Of a stretch of DNA of 64,000 bases, positions 19,015 to 55,775 are shown piece by piece. Position numbers and translations under genes: made by a program. Every line of letters starts with the position of its first letter. The first letter of the stretch is position 1. The DNA lies in NCBI RefSeq assembly GCF_000221185.1, contig NC_015865.1:372001-436000 (forward strand). Direction: 5' to 3'. Below the pieces are notes generated by a model. That model had not been told where the DNA came from, did not search any database, and was given only the letters and a program-made list of their open reading frames with translations. Origin of the DNA: Thermococcus sp. 4557 (lineage in GTDB: Archaea; Methanobacteriota_B; Thermococci; Thermococcales; Thermococcaceae).

Positions 19015-19102
19015 GCCTCGGCCTCCTGGACTGGTCATCATCCTTCAGCCGGTTGATCCTTCGTCATCGGCGTAGAAAGTAGGAAAAGGGAGTTAAAAAC
19101 CT

Positions 19103-24042: not shown

Positions 24043-24422
24043 TGAGTCAGCTGGGAGTAAAACGAAAGATGAGTAGTAGCAAAAGCAAAAATGGAGTTAA
24101 GTACCCTGTTTTGAGACTGCCCAGAGAATATGAGTGGCTAGTTGGAATGGAAGTCGAAATTGAATTTAGAGTTGTCGATGGTCGAAAAGCACTTGTGCTT
24201 TATGTGGATGACAATACCCAAGTTGTACAACAGGTTGTACAACTCAATAATGACTCGAATGATATTGAAAGGAGGATACGAGAGCTTGAGGATAGGATAA
24301 TGTCGTTGGAGGCTATTCTGAAAAAAGGGGACCGTTTTGAGTGGTTTCGGCTGTTGTGGTGGGCCCGCGGGGATTCGAACCCCGGACCTCCACCTTGTAA
24401 GGGTGGCGTCATAACCATCTAG
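24042..24422 (+). pseudogene. N-terminal fragment of SSV-type (suicidal) integrase, int(N), overlapping tRNA-Val
   Basis: The 126-residue ORF has an AbrB-like basic/strand region (YPVLRLPREYEWLVGMEVEIEF), a coiled coil (IERRIRELEDRIMSLEAILKK), then reads antisense into the tRNA gene (WWARGDSNPGPPPCKGGVITI) and stops inside it. In thermococcal integrated plasmids the attachment site lies in the integrase gene and copies the tRNA 3' half, so integration leaves exactly this fragment abutting the tRNA. The tyrosine recombinase domain is absent. It is translationally coupled to the upstream gene (TAATG). Assignment rests on structure and position, not on a catalytic motif. Confidence 0.7.
24221..24244. 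repeat. Double palindrome: two GTTGTACAAC copies in int(N)
   Basis: The 10-bp palindrome GTTGTACAAC occurs twice (24222-24231 and 24234-24243), separated by two bases, and the 24-base unit is itself symmetric apart from the two-base spacer. It encodes QVVQQVVQ. It may be a protein-binding site kept from the mobile element. Confidence 0.6.
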
Positions 24423-24433
24423 ACCACGGGCCC
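24357..24433 (-). tRNA. tRNA-Val (anticodon TAC), CCA encoded
   Basis: On the minus strand the 77-base gene folds as a standard cloverleaf: acceptor GGGCCCG/CGGGCCC, D arm GTC...GAC, anticodon stem CCACC/GGTGG around CTTACAA (anticodon TAC, reading GUA and related valine codons), T arm CGGGG-TTCGAAT-CCCCG, then discriminator A and encoded CCA. No intron. Its 3' half overlaps the integrase fragment read on the other strand and is the presumed attachment site. Confidence 0.97.
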
Positions 24434-50227: not shown

Positions 50228-51276
50228 CAGGCAGCCCCCCTGTGGATTGCTTTCTTAACCAGGTCGTACAGGCTCGGGATGGCGACGGTTATGACGATGA
50301 TTCCCTGGATGACCTTGATGATCTCCAGCGGGACGTGGGCCTGAGCCTGCATCAGGGCGGTTCCAGCGCGGAGCATTCCGAAGAATATTGCCGACAGGAT
50401 TATGCCCAGCGGGTGGTTCCTTCCGACGAGGGCAACGCCTATTCCGTCGAAACCGAAGCCGTAGATGTTCGCACCGCCCTGGCTGATGGCGTAGCCCGGT
50501 CCCTCTCCCATGATCTTCATGGCACCGCCGAGGCCGCTGAGGAGACCACCGATGAGGAAAGACCACATGACCGCCATCTTTGGATTCATTCCGGCGTAGC
50601 GTGCGGCTTTCTGGTTTATTCCGCTGGCGCGCATGCCGAATCCCATCGTGGTGTGCCAGAGCAGGAAGTACGTCAGCAGCGCGGCAATGACCGCGATGAT
50701 TATCGCTATCGAAAGTCCGTAGCCGATGATGGGAAGCCTCGCATCAACGGGTATCCTGATGGTCTTGTTGGGGTCGTTGGGGTTGGCGTAGGGGCCGACT
50801 ATGAGCCAGAGAACGAAGAACCAGCCAATCCAGTTGAGCATGATTGTCGAGATGACCTCGTGGACGCCGCGGTAGACCTTGAGCACCGCCGCTGGGAGGG
50901 CCCAGAGGGCGCCGAAGAGCATGCCCATGGCGAGGCCGAACCACATGTTGTCCCAGATGTTGGTGAATATCACCGCGGCTATGGCGCCGAAGTAGAAGGA
51001 GCTTTCGGCACCGATGTTGAAGATTCCGGTCCTCGTGCCGATTGCGAACGTGAGCGCCGTGAGCATTATTGGTGTCGCGTACTTGAGCGTGGACGCTATT
51101 CCGTACGTGGATCCAAGGGCGCCCTGGAAGAGCCAGTAGTACGCGGACCACGGGTTGTAGCCGAAGGCCAGGAGGACTATCGCACCGATGATGAAACCCA
51201 CGAGTATGGCTATGAGGCTCTCAACGAAGGGGCGGAGGTTTATTGACTTCAGGGACTCACTTCCTGATTTCTTCAT
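50227..51276 (-). CDS. ABC transporter permease (BMP/nucleoside-type), subunit 1
   Basis: The 349-residue YufP/NupP-like permease has about 9-10 helices; conserved phrases include FGYNPWSAYYWLFQGALGS, TALTFAIGTRTGIFNIGAES, GMRASGINQKAARYAGMNPK, and GGLLSGLGGAMKIMGE. Its start lies 20 bases inside the end of the ATPase gene, and its end touches the second permease. The longer N terminus than the second subunit matches the usual pair. Confidence 0.88.
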   Translation of the reverse strand: MKKSGSESLKSINLRPFVESLIAILVGFIIGAIVLLAFGYNPWSAYYWLFQGALGSTYGIASTLKYATPIMLTALTFAIGTRTGIFNIGAESSFYFGAIAAVIFTNIWDNMWFGLAMGMLFGALWALPAAVLKVYRGVHEVISTIMLNWIGWFFVLWLIVGPYANPNDPNKTIRIPVDARLPIIGYGLSIAIIIAVIAALLTYFLLWHTTMGFGMRASGINQKAARYAGMNPKMAVMWSFLIGGLLSGLGGAMKIMGEGPGYAISQGGANIYGFGFDGIGVALVGRNHPLGIILSAIFFGMLRAGTALMQAQAHVPLEIIKVIQGIIVITVAIPSLYDLVKKAIHRGAA

Positions 51277-52795
51277 AGCGGATACCTCCCATCATCATTC
51301 CTATCTCTTCCGTGTTCACTTCCTCGGGCTTCACAACGCCCATGAACTCGCCCTCGTAGATGATTCCCATCCTGTCGCTGAGCTGAAGAACCTCGTCCAG
51401 ATCGGCCGAGACCAGAAGGACGGCCTTCCCCTCGTTTCTGAGCTTGACGAGGTAGTTCCTAATGTACTCCGTCGAGGCGACATCGACACCGCGCGTCGGC
51501 TGGGCCGCGATGATGAATATGGGCTCCTTGCTGACCTCCCTTGCAACGATGAGCTTCTGCTGGTTTCCGCCGCTGAGGGACTTAACCGGTGCCTCAGTGC
51601 CCGGGGCGGAGATGTCAAACTGCTCTATGAGCGACCTGGCGTGTTCTCTGGCCTTGCTCCAGTTTATAACGCCCTTGAAGCGCTGGAACTTGGGATGCCA
51701 GTGGAGGCCTAGGACGGAGTTTTCGGTCACAGTCATGTCCAGGATGAGCCCCATGTGGGTTCTGTCCTCCGGCACGTGGGCCATTCCGAGGTCGTAGAGC
51801 TCCCTCGGCCCCTTGCCCGTGATGTCCTTGCCCTGAAGATATATCCTGCCGCTCTCCACTTTCCGGAGACCGGAAATTGCCTCAATCAGCTCAGTCTGGC
51901 CGTTGCCCTCGACGCCCGCTATTCCAAATATCTCACCGGCGCGGACATCGAACGAGAGGCCGTTGACGGCAACCTCGCCACGGTCGCCCATAACCTTGAG
52001 GTTCTCAACGCGGAGAATCGGCTCGCCGGGCTCCTTTGGCGGCTTCTCTATCTTCAGGACAACGTCCCTGCCAACCATCATCTTGGCAAGGAGCTGGGGC
52101 GTTGCCTCGCTCGTGTTGACCGTTCCGATGACCTCTCCCTTCCTGATGACTGTGACGCGGTCGGTGAGGTCCATGACCTCGTTGAGCTTGTGGCTGATGA
52201 AGATGATGGTCTTGCCCTCCGCCTTGAGCTGCCTCAGGACGCGGAAGAGCTCCTCGACCTCTATGGGCGTGAGAACCGCAGTGGGCTCATCGAGGATGAG
52301 GACATCGACGTCGCGGTAGAGCATCTTGAGGATCTCTATCCTCTGCTGAACACCAACGGGGAGGTCCTCGACGGGAATTTCGAGGGGCACCTGGAAGTTC
52401 AGGTCGTCCATGAGCTTCTGGAGCCTTTCCCTTGCCCTGTCAACGTCTATCTTAGAAAACGCCCCGTGGCCCTCCATTCCGAGTATTATGTTGTGAAGGG
52501 CATCAAAAACTTCAACGAGCGTGAAGTGCTGGTGAACCATACCGATGCCGTGGGCGATGGCATCGGAGGGGCTCTTAAAGCGAACCTCTTCGCCCCTGAT
52601 GAGAATTTTACCCGATGTGGGATGGAGCATCCCGAAGAGGATCTTCATGAGGGTGGTCTTTCCTGCACCGTTCTCACCGAGGAGACCCAAAATCTCGCCT
52701 TTATTAACCGTGAGATCAACACCTTTGAGGGCCTTCGTGCCGTCCGGATAAACCTTGACGATTCCCTTCATCTCGATTATTGGCCTTCTCTCCAT
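51257..52795 (-). CDS. ABC transporter ATP-binding protein, double cassette (BMP/nucleoside-type)
   Basis: The 512-residue protein has two ABC domains. The first is canonical: Walker A GENGAGKTT (about residue 39), signature LPVGVQQRIEIL and Walker B LILDEPTAVLTP. The second has a degenerate Walker A (GVEGNGQTE) but a good signature LSGGNQQKLIVARE, as in RbsA/YufO-type proteins with one hydrolytic site. It powers the two permeases downstream, with which it overlaps. It lies 43 bases after the binding-protein gene. Confidence 0.92.
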   Translation of the reverse strand: MERRPIIEMKGIVKVYPDGTKALKGVDLTVNKGEILGLLGENGAGKTTLMKILFGMLHPTSGKILIRGEEVRFKSPSDAIAHGIGMVHQHFTLVEVFDALHNIILGMEGHGAFSKIDVDRARERLQKLMDDLNFQVPLEIPVEDLPVGVQQRIEILKMLYRDVDVLILDEPTAVLTPIEVEELFRVLRQLKAEGKTIIFISHKLNEVMDLTDRVTVIRKGEVIGTVNTSEATPQLLAKMMVGRDVVLKIEKPPKEPGEPILRVENLKVMGDRGEVAVNGLSFDVRAGEIFGIAGVEGNGQTELIEAISGLRKVESGRIYLQGKDITGKGPRELYDLGMAHVPEDRTHMGLILDMTVTENSVLGLHWHPKFQRFKGVINWSKAREHARSLIEQFDISAPGTEAPVKSLSGGNQQKLIVAREVSKEPIFIIAAQPTRGVDVASTEYIRNYLVKLRNEGKAVLLVSADLDEVLQLSDRMGIIYEGEFMGVVKPEEVNTEEIGMMMGGIRYEEIRK

Positions 52796-52838: not shown

Positions 52839-54068
52839 TCACTTGGCGAGTTCCATCATTTCCTGCCAGGTCTTGGCGTTCCTGACTTCTGTGATTCCGT
52901 CCTTGTCCATGGGAGCCGGAACCTTGATCACGCCGGTGGTGATCTTGCCCTGAAGCTCCTTGATGGCGTCCCAGACCCAGTCGGGAACCTGCTTCCTGGT
53001 GTCCTCGAGGTACTGCTTCAGCTCGTCCCTGCTGTTGAAGCCGAGGTCCTTGAGCTTCTGCTGCTGGGTGTCCTCCGGAAGGGAGTCGAACATGGCCATA
53101 ACGTCGTCAACGGTGCTGAGGCCAACACCGTCCTCCTTGAGGCCAAGCTCGACAACTCCACCCTTGAAGTTGCCGTTAACTGCATCCTCAACAGCCTTGT
53201 AAACACCGACGTCAACGCGCTTCATCATGCTGGCGATTATGACGCCCGGCTTGATCCAGTCCTGGGCCGAGTCAACACCGATGGCGAACGGCGGACCCAT
53301 CTTCTTGCCCTGGGAGTCGAGGACCTCTCCAACCGCGTCAAAGACACCGAGTCCGGTTCCGCCGGCGACCTGGTAGATGACCCAGGCACCCTGGGCGAGC
53401 TGGGCCCTGGCCGCGGCCTTACCCTTGGCGGCGTCGCCGAAGCTTCCTGTGTACTGGTAGAGGACGTCTATGGTAACGTCCTTGCCCTCCTTCTGCTTGT
53501 AGTAGTCCTCGGCCCACTTAACACCGAAGCGGTAGCCGGCTTCGAACTTGTAGAGAACCGGTATCTCCATTCCGAGAACGATGCCGACCTTGTCCTTGCC
53601 GTCGTTGGCCGCTATGAGGCCAGCGAGTGCACCGGCAAGGGCCGAGCCCTCGTTCTCCTTGAAGAGGATGCTCATGACGTTGTCCTTGTCAGGGATGTAA
53701 CCGTCAATGATGGCGAACTTCTGGTCGGGATACTCGTCCGCGACCTGCTTAACGGCGTCGGTCATCATGAAGCCGACGGCTATGATAACGAGGTACTTCT
53801 TCTGGGCGGCAAGGGTCTCGAGGTTCTTGACGTAGTCGTCCTCGCTGTTGCTCTGGAGCTCAACGAGGTCGAGGTTGAAGTCCTTCGCCGCCTTGCTGGC
53901 ACCGAGGTACGCCATGTCGTTGAAGCTCAGGTCACCCCTTCCGCCGACATCATAGACGATGGCAATGGTGCCTTTAGTGGATTCCTCTCCACCTGAGGAT
54001 ATACAGCCACTGGCCACGACGCTGAGGGCCATAATGCCTATTAAAAACAGGCTTAACCATTTCTTCAT
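52839..54068 (-). CDS. BMP-family substrate-binding lipoprotein
   Basis: The 409-residue protein has a signal peptide with lipobox (LSVVASGCISSGGE, cysteine about residue 22) and the Bmp domain of PnrA/TmpC-type nucleoside receptors: IAIVYDVGGRGDLSFNDMAYLGASKA, LQSNSEDDYVKNLETLAAQKKYLVIIAVGFMMTDAV, KFAIIDGYIP. The last 100 residues form an extension beyond the usual domain (EDAVNGNFKGGVVELGL... and a helical tail). It heads the operon with its own TATA box (AAACTATATATTCC, about 54110-54122). Nucleosides are the likely cargo, by family. Confidence 0.9.
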   Translation of the reverse strand: MKKWLSLFLIGIMALSVVASGCISSGGEESTKGTIAIVYDVGGRGDLSFNDMAYLGASKAAKDFNLDLVELQSNSEDDYVKNLETLAAQKKYLVIIAVGFMMTDAVKQVADEYPDQKFAIIDGYIPDKDNVMSILFKENEGSALAGALAGLIAANDGKDKVGIVLGMEIPVLYKFEAGYRFGVKWAEDYYKQKEGKDVTIDVLYQYTGSFGDAAKGKAAARAQLAQGAWVIYQVAGGTGLGVFDAVGEVLDSQGKKMGPPFAIGVDSAQDWIKPGVIIASMMKRVDVGVYKAVEDAVNGNFKGGVVELGLKEDGVGLSTVDDVMAMFDSLPEDTQQQKLKDLGFNSRDELKQYLEDTRKQVPDWVWDAIKELQGKITTGVIKVPAPMDKDGITEVRNAKTWQEMMELAK

Positions 54069-54190
54069 GTTAACACCCCGCGAGTTTTCAAAGGTATAAC
54101 TCCGGACGGAATATATAGTTTGCGGTCACAGAAAGACCGAAAATTTGGGAAAGAATTTTAACCACCGGGTAAAAGTTTTTTGTGATGACC

Positions 54191-54640
54191 ATGCTGAAGA
54201 AAATAGCCGAACTTAACGCGGGAGCGGTTTTAATAACGGGAGACGGGAAGAGACTTGCGAAAATATACATCAATGCCTGGAGCAAGGACGGCAGGCGCGT
54301 GCTTGCTGAATACATTCCATTCCAGGTGAACGGTGACGTCTACATCGGCCCACCGTTTGAGAGCGACGACTTCGATGTGTACCTGATAGTGAACCCCCTC
54401 TCGCGCTCCAAGGCGGAGAGGGAAAAGCTCCGGGAGTGGCTGGGGGAACACAGAGACAAGCTCATTCTGCTGTACGAGCACAAGTACGTGAAGGATTCGA
54501 TAACGCGCTACAGAATCAGGGAATTCATTGACTACCTAATCGCATACAAGAGGGAGACCGTCGGTTTCGAGAGGGTCGATGTGATGCGTCTGGAGAACGG
54601 ACGAATAGTCGAGAGCAAAACCTACGTCAGGAGGTACTGA
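54191..54640 (+). CDS. Hypothetical protein, about 149 aa
   Basis: The alpha-beta protein begins MLKKIAELNAGAVLITGDGKRLAKIYINAWSKDGRRVLAEYIPF and ends in a basic segment (ESKTYVRRY). Candidate starts are GTG 54182, ATG 54185 and ATG 54191, all close together, with no strong ribosome binding site; the AT-rich AAAAGTTTTTT just upstream suggests a leaderless start. No motif or family is recognised. The C/D sRNA and ftsY follow. Confidence 0.65.
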   Translation: MLKKIAELNAGAVLITGDGKRLAKIYINAWSKDGRRVLAEYIPFQVNGDVYIGPPFESDDFDVYLIVNPLSRSKAEREKLREWLGEHRDKLILLYEHKYVKDSITRYRIREFIDYLIAYKRETVGFERVDVMRLENGRIVESKTYVRRY

Positions 54641-54652
54641 AGGGGCACGTGC

Positions 54653-54664
54653 GGTTTATAAACC
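54653..54664 (+). promoter_or_regulatory. TATA box of the C/D box sRNA
   Basis: The sequence ggtttataaacc is centred about 26 bases before the predicted 5' end of the sRNA at 54684. Confidence 0.6.
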
Positions 54665-54683: not shown

Positions 54684-54741
54684 GCCCGATGACGAGTGGC
54701 TTCGGGTCTGAGGTGTGATGACACCAGCTATCGCCGAGGGC
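54684..54741 (+). ncRNA. C/D box guide sRNA
   Basis: The 58-base unit shows all parts in order: 5' stem GCCC (54684-54687), C box GATGA (54688-54692), D' box CTGA (54708-54711), a 3-base spacer GGT, C' box GTGATGA (54715-54721), 12 bases, D box CCGA (54734-54737, noncanonical), 3' stem GGGC (54738-54741). A TATA box lies 26 bases upstream. The 12-base D guide CACCAGCTATCG is complementary, over GATAGCTGGT, to what I recall of a conserved 23S rRNA domain II segment, predicting ribose methylation of the second A in that match. The D' guide target is less clear. Confidence 0.65.
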
Positions 54742-54750
54742 GTTCATAAC

Positions 54751-54760
54751 TATTATATAG
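54751..54760 (+). promoter_or_regulatory. TATA box for ftsY
   Basis: tattatatag lies about 36 bases before ATG 54792, giving a short leader with the GGTGGTGGAG ribosome binding site. Confidence 0.6.
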
Positions 54761-54791: not shown

Positions 54792-55775
54792 ATGTTTGGG
54801 AAGCTCAGGGAAAAGCTCAAGAAGTTCACAAAGACCGTTGAGGAGAAGATAGAAGAGGAAGAGAAAGCCCTCGAAAAGGAGGCCCCCGAAGAAAAGAAGG
54901 GGTTCATTGAAAAGCTCCTCCAGGTGGAGATAAAGGAGAAGGATGTTGAAGAGGCTTTGGACGAGCTGGAGATTGAGCTTCTTGAGGCAGACGTGGCTTT
55001 GGAGACTGTGGAGGCCCTTCGTGAAAAAATCAAGGAAAAGCTCGTCGGTAAGAAGGTCCGCATAGGCACGAACAAGGGCAGACTCATAGAGGAAGCGCTC
55101 CGTGAGGCCGTTCTTGATGTCCTGACACCCGAGAAGAAGATAGACCTCCTCGAACTGATAAAGTCCAAGGAGGAAAAGCCCTTCGTCATAGCCTTTGTGG
55201 GCTTCAACGGCTCCGGAAAGACAACGACCATAGCCAAGCTGGCCAACTGGCTCAAGAAGAACGGTCTCGGCGTCGTCATAGCCGCGAGCGACACCTTCAG
55301 GGCTGGAGCGATAGAGCAGGTCGAGGAGCACGCAAAGCGCGTCGGCGTCAAGGTCATCAAGCACTCCTACGGTGCCGATCCGGCTGCGGTTGCCTACGAC
55401 GCGATCCAGCACGCCAAGGCCAGGGGACTGGATGTCGTCCTCATAGACACCGCCGGAAGGAACGAGCTGAACAGGAACCTCATGGACGAGATGAAGAAGA
55501 TAGCGCGCGTAACCAAGCCCGACCTGGTGATATTCGTCGGCGATTCCCTCGGAGGAAACTCCGTCGTCGAGCAGGCGAAGCAGTTCAACGAGGCGGTGAA
55601 GATCGACGGCGTAATCCTCACCAAGCTGGACGCGGACGCCCGTGGCGGTGCCGCTTTGAGCATAAGCCACGCCATCGGGGCGCCGATACTCTTCGTCGGC
55701 GTTGGACAGGGCTACGACGACCTCAGGCCCTTCGATGAGAAGTGGTTCGTGGACAGGATTTTCGGGGAGGGGTGA
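54792..55775 (+). CDS. ftsY: Signal recognition particle receptor FtsY
   Basis: FtsY docks the SRP-ribosome complex at the membrane and hydrolyses GTP with Ffh. The 327-residue protein has a charged helical N domain (about 1-120), then the G domain: G1 [16 protein letters not shown] (about residue 133), [10 protein letters not shown] (G2/I-box), [11 protein letters not shown] (G3), [13 protein letters not shown] (G4), and the closing [14 protein letters not shown] 54792 follows GGTGGTGGAG. It ends 7 bases from the stop of the convergent membrane protein gene. Confidence 0.95.

Follow-up and report, generated by a model that had tools for sequence, protein, structure and literature searches.

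The question raised by this locus is whether a short element of Thermococcus sp. 4557, with the boxes of a C/D sRNA and a D box that reads CCGA instead of CTGA, is a working guide RNA, and what its unusual D box means. The element lies in a window of 64,000 nucleotides, the whole stretch of DNA that was analysed (positions 372001-436000 of the 2.01-Mb single-contig genome); unless otherwise stated, coordinates are those of the window. A preliminary description, made from the sequence, had taken it for a C/D box sRNA with a guide directed to 23S rRNA. This was essentially right: Rfam identifies the locus as RF01136 (sR28, C/D box) with 56.8 bits against a gathering cut-off of 39 (E = 5.9e-12), and the 23S rRNA of the organism itself has a match for each guide. 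The locus almost certainly encodes the orthologue of sR28 in Thermococcus, a C/D box sRNA with two guides and predicted 23S rRNA methylation.

Architecture and family of the sRNA

The element and its probable promoter are made up as follows.

54684-54741 (+): C/D box sRNA, sR28 (RF01136), a 58-nt core with two guides; the Rfam match spans 54685-54739
54684-54687 (+): 5' strand of the terminal stem, GCCC, the C-helix of the kink-turn, with C54687 as −1b; complementary to 54738-54741
54689-54695 (+): C box, ATGACGA (consensus RUGAUGA, U5 changed to C)
54696-54707 (+): D' guide, GTGGCTTCGGGT, pairing with own 23S rRNA 788-798, target G792
54708-54711 (+): D' box, CTGA
54712-54714 (+): D'-C' spacer, 3 nt
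54715-54721 (+): C' box, GTGATGA
54722-54733 (+): D guide, CACCAGCTATCG, pairing with own 23S rRNA 920-930, target A924
54734-54737 (+): D box, CCGA (U2 of the consensus CUGA is C here), a change paired with that at position 5 of the C box
54738-54741 (+): 3' strand of the terminal stem, GGGC
54655-54663 (+): TATA-like element, TTTATAAAC, probably the sRNA promoter, centred about 25 nt upstream of 54684

The boxes, the terminal stem, the 12-nt distance from C' to D and the 3-nt D'-C' spacer all lie where the preliminary description had placed them, its reading of the D box as CCGA and not CTGA agrees with the sequence, and the TATA box that it had put 26 nt upstream corresponds to TTTATAAAC. 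The Rfam match runs over the full length of the 55-position model and takes in the four boxes and the two guides; it differs from the model, which has AUGAUGA/CUGA, in the C box ATGACGA and the D box CCGA. All four boxes are therefore present, with the C and D boxes each carrying one U to C change, at facing positions. A strict four-box pattern was found at two sites in the window (54684-54741 and, on the minus strand, 19015-19071) and at none in 60 Markov-1 shuffles, which, together with the Rfam E value of 5.9e-12, argues that the site is not a chance occurrence. The second site, on the minus strand, holds another C/D box sRNA, which resembles sR14, with 33.1 bits against a cut-off of 38 that it does not reach, and which shares the ATGACGA/CCGA combination; all 12 bases of its D' guide AGGATCAACCGG are complementary to nucleotides 4-15 in the organism's own 16S rRNA.

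In the kink-turn of sR28 a 3-nt bulge (G54688-A54689-U54690) is followed by the pairs G54691.A54737, A54692.G54736, C54693.C54735 and G54694-C54734, a register that is identical in all parsed orthologues. An alternative C-box register, CCGATGA at 54686-54692, was rejected, as it loses the terminal stem beside the 3-nt bulge and makes the guide region 15 nt long. The fold of the RNA alone is not unusually stable (z = −0.90), which is nothing out of the ordinary where a C/D RNA folds on L7Ae.

The sR28 model scores above the Rfam cut-off in 33 of 37 Thermococcus genomes; a search of 24 more distant archaeal genomes gave no such match. The boxes are conserved across the orthologues, and guides of 12 + 12 nt with a 3-nt spacer are found in all 36 that were fully parsed. 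The TATA-like element is common to the closest relatives (loci L021, L024, L025, L027, L028 and L032) and is not kept genus-wide, so that some orthologues may come from processing of longer transcripts. With a genome pattern search 11 loci matched the sR28 pattern; locus L035, in an Acidobacteria MAG, is without the other boxes and was set aside as a chance match. In the control genome of Sulfolobus acidocaldarius the sR28 model also scores over the cut-off, which suggests that the same guide pair may occur well outside the Thermococcales. The sRNA is thus well formed, conserved and already catalogued.

Guide complementarity to 23S rRNA

The 23S rRNA of Thermococcus sp. 4557, which is encoded by one gene, contains a target for each guide. 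Two of the three conditions named in the preliminary description as able to refute it, loss of the boxes in relatives and lack of a match in this 23S rRNA, were examined on sequence and did not refute it. The D guide, previously credited with a duplex of 10 bp, forms 11 bp with CGATAGCTGGT at 920-930, where A924 (E. coli A804), a predicted Am, lies opposite the fifth guide base counted from the D box. The target of the D' guide, given earlier as ACCCGAAGCCAC, was located at 788-798, on the opposite strand of the helix that holds the D target; the organism's own 23S rRNA reads ACCCGAAGCCGG, and the duplex with ACCCGAAGCCG comprises 10 Watson-Crick base pairs and one G.U pair. In this duplex the fifth-base rule, counted from the D' box, points to G792 (E. 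coli G674) as a predicted Gm. A weaker second D' site lies at 702-716 of this rRNA. The chance level was estimated with 5000 random 12-mers drawn from the window and searched for exact matches to the same 23S rRNA. Of the 5000 draws, 8 gave matches of at least 11 bases and 48 matches of at least 10 bases; two matches in one molecule, both in the fifth-base register, are therefore not expected by chance.

The D' target AGACCCGAAGCCGGTCGA is identical in all relatives whose 23S rRNA was compared. Orthologues with the guide GCGGTTTCGGGT have one G.U pair exchanged for another G.U, the 23S sequence being unchanged in the relatives compared; the guide drifts and the pairing strength stays the same. 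The archaeal LSU model of Rfam places the target segments on opposite strands of one long-range helix in domain II; G792 pairs with the C that lies two bases beyond A924, and A924 itself falls in an internal loop, so that the two predicted sites, 132 nt apart in sequence, face each other across that loop. With the locus correctly annotated, a conserved 23S rRNA helix of Thermococcus sp. 4557 gains two predicted sites of methylation.

Yeast snR60 is likewise a C/D guide with two large-subunit targets, which lie in rRNA segments that we take to be equivalent to those targeted by sR28. Its sites are 25S Am817 and Gm908 (PMC2806949); it differs in being a eukaryotic snoRNA, the methylated nucleotides are probably neighbours rather than the same ones, and no Rfam match at E ≤ 10 links the locus to the snR60 family by covariance model. 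Guides that address both strands of a single rRNA helix, with a proposed chaperone role, have also been described for Nanoarchaeum equitans sR17 and sR15, the targets of which are, in contrast, helices 28 and 30 of 16S rRNA (PMC4644070).

We infer the following course of RNP assembly, methylation and chaperone action by sR28. The C/D kink-turn and the C'/D' kink-loop would bind L7Ae, Nop5 and fibrillarin, and the D and D' guides would then pair with the two segments of domain II of 23S rRNA, placing fibrillarin on the riboses opposite the fifth guide base, at A924 (E. coli A804) and G792 (E. coli G674). Since both strands of a single long-range helix are targeted, the sRNP probably holds the segments together, keeping both strands open and close to each other until assembly.

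Co-variation of the C and D boxes

In a kink-turn, position 5 of the C box (3b) faces position 2 of the D box (3n), with U:U as the consensus. Among the 36 parsed sR28 orthologues the 3b:3n pair is C:C in 27, U:U in 7 and A:U in 2, with neither U:C nor C:U, and the D box is CCGA in all 27 orthologues with the C box ATGACGA. Since such counts reflect related sequences, other C/D sRNAs with the same spacing were searched in the genus, and a sample of 62 ATGACGA and 39 ATGATGA sRNAs from 13 Thermococcus genomes was sorted by guide into 20 families. Every one of the 39 ATGATGA sRNAs has CTGA, whereas ATGACGA is accompanied by CCGA in 47 of 62 cases and by CTGA in 15, 12 of which belong to a single family. 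The 3b:3n totals for the 20 families are thus C:C 47, U:U 39, C:U 15 and U:C 0; counted by family, C:C occurs in 11, U:U in 14, C:U in four and U:C in none. The ATGACGA/CCGA combination is present in ten families besides sR28, and several families, sR28 among them, hold both C:C and U:U members, which indicates that the paired change happened more than once. Counting of the switches between U:U and C:C within sR28 on an FtsY tree was abandoned because the tree is too poorly resolved, and the independent families were used instead.

The C'/D' pair behaves similarly, with U:U, G:U, G:C, C:C and A:U along with one U:C and one C:U. The GTGA C-box pattern gave four matches, all GTGATGA with CTGA, and the ATGARGA patterns a mixture of G:C, G:U and A:U with a few A:C; a reversed-pattern control for the ATGACGA and ATGATGA searches gave no matches. 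Most likely, the CCGA D box is functional, being compensated by the C-box change that converts the pair following the two sheared G.A pairs from U:U to C:C.

McPhee et al. (2014) found that C at 3b lets a kink-turn fold in Mg2+ alone (PMC4382518), and Ashraf et al. (2017) that archaeal box C/D kink-turns are biased to U:U, with the one measured being L7Ae-dependent (PMC5689011). By the published kink-turn rules, the Thermococcus C:C forms with −1b:−1n = C:G are predicted to fold more readily in ions. Our tentative proposal, which we regard as possible but somewhat doubtful, is that the Thermococcus 3b:3n pair switches repeatedly as a unit (U:U and C:C; also A:U, G:C and G:U) while U:C is avoided, and that L7Ae may be dispensable for folding of the C:C forms with −1b:−1n = C:G, in contrast to the archaeal C/D kink-turn examined to date. 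The departures of Thermococcus from the CUGA D box are one half of a co-varying pair and not noise; the co-variation would help sRNA finders that require exact boxes, and these sRNAs provide a natural series of kink-turn variants for testing how the dependence of folding on ions or on L7Ae is adjusted. No published report of 3b:3n co-variation was found in a brief and partial literature search; the co-variation is the sole fresh point of this analysis, the sRNA itself being ordinary.

Expression, gene neighbourhood and alternative readings

The T. kodakarensis orthologue of sR28 (558825-558876 of genome G011) lies inside the published circular RNA sR20 of that organism (558818-558879), to which it was tied by coordinates. 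That G011 is T. kodakarensis follows from several further C/D matches that fall inside published circular-RNA coordinates (832372-832420, 1226846-1226894, 316136-316184, 1371733-1371781 and 2070063-2070111; PMC9014305). Tko-sR20 is 62 nt long, with a start site at 558914, 1,622 small-RNA reads and 21 circular reads (PMC9014305, Table 1), none being circular in an RNA-ligase knockout (PMC9014305). Transcription and partial circularisation are thus known for the T. kodakarensis orthologue from published work (PMC9014305), and 54 C/D snoRNAs have been verified as transcripts in that species (PMC4247193). The two loci are orthologous, but T. kodakarensis has a U:U C/D kink-turn (GTGATGA/CTGA), and its D'/C' kink-loop carries CCGA/GTGAGGA. 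The 'sR28' of the T. kodakarensis table (PMC9014305) was considered and rejected as the counterpart of the locus, as numbering there follows genome position and 832364-832425 matches a different sRNA. Genes for fibrillarin (PF01269, 338 bits) and for a protein with a Nop domain (PF01798, 253 bits) lie side by side in the genome of Thermococcus sp. 4557.

The sRNA is flanked as follows.

54182-54640 (+): uncharacterised ORF of 152 aa, the upstream neighbour, for which a Pfam search gave no family
54752-54759: TATA-like element of ftsY itself, ATTATATA, between the sRNA and ftsY
54792-55775 (+): ftsY (SRP receptor GTPase; PF00448 SRP54, 267 bits), the downstream neighbour

By tblastn synteny the 152-aa ORF is upstream of the sRNA in 30 of 30 loci from the genome search and ftsY is downstream of sR28 in most loci, so that the order uncharacterised ORF, sRNA, ftsY is kept among Thermococcus loci.

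The position just upstream of ftsY in nearly all genomes, together with the suggestion that some predicted 5'-UTR snoRNAs may be cis-elements (PMC4247193), could be taken to mean that the element is a kink-turn in the ftsY leader, bound by L7Ae and regulating ftsY translation, with a likeness to C/D sRNAs confined to the boxes. Such a regulator would need no pair of 12-nt guides, however, and here both guides are conserved and match 23S rRNA; a TATA-like element (54752-54759) separates the sRNA from ftsY, and the T. kodakarensis orthologue is a free circular RNA of 62 nt (PMC9014305), which leaves a leader element very improbable. That the locus is a degenerate copy, with guide sequence retained, the D box decayed to CCGA and assembly lost, would account for the departure from the CUGA consensus, but it is hardly credible given that CCGA occurs in 27 of the 36 parsed orthologues, always with ATGACGA and with guides and spacing fixed, and that the same C/D combination recurs in ten further sRNA families.

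A different balance of functions may also be envisaged, in which sR28 serves mainly to chaperone rRNA folding, with little or no methylation at one of its two sites. The guides do span both strands of one long-range 23S rRNA helix, and such a role has been proposed for C/D sRNAs with opposite-strand guides by Dennis et al. (2015) (PMC4644070). The fifth-base geometry is, however, intact at both sites and the guide lengths are ordinary, and we consider this emphasis unlikely by comparison with a dual guide for methylation of A924 and G792.

On the other side of the 152-aa ORF, on the minus strand, are found a gene for a PnrA-like (Bmp) substrate-binding protein (52839-54068) and one that from its sequence reads as a two-domain ABC ATPase (51257-52795), likely components of a nucleoside uptake system adjoining the sRNA locus. 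A tRNA gene (Rfam, 70.4 bits) is present at 24360-24433, also on the minus strand.
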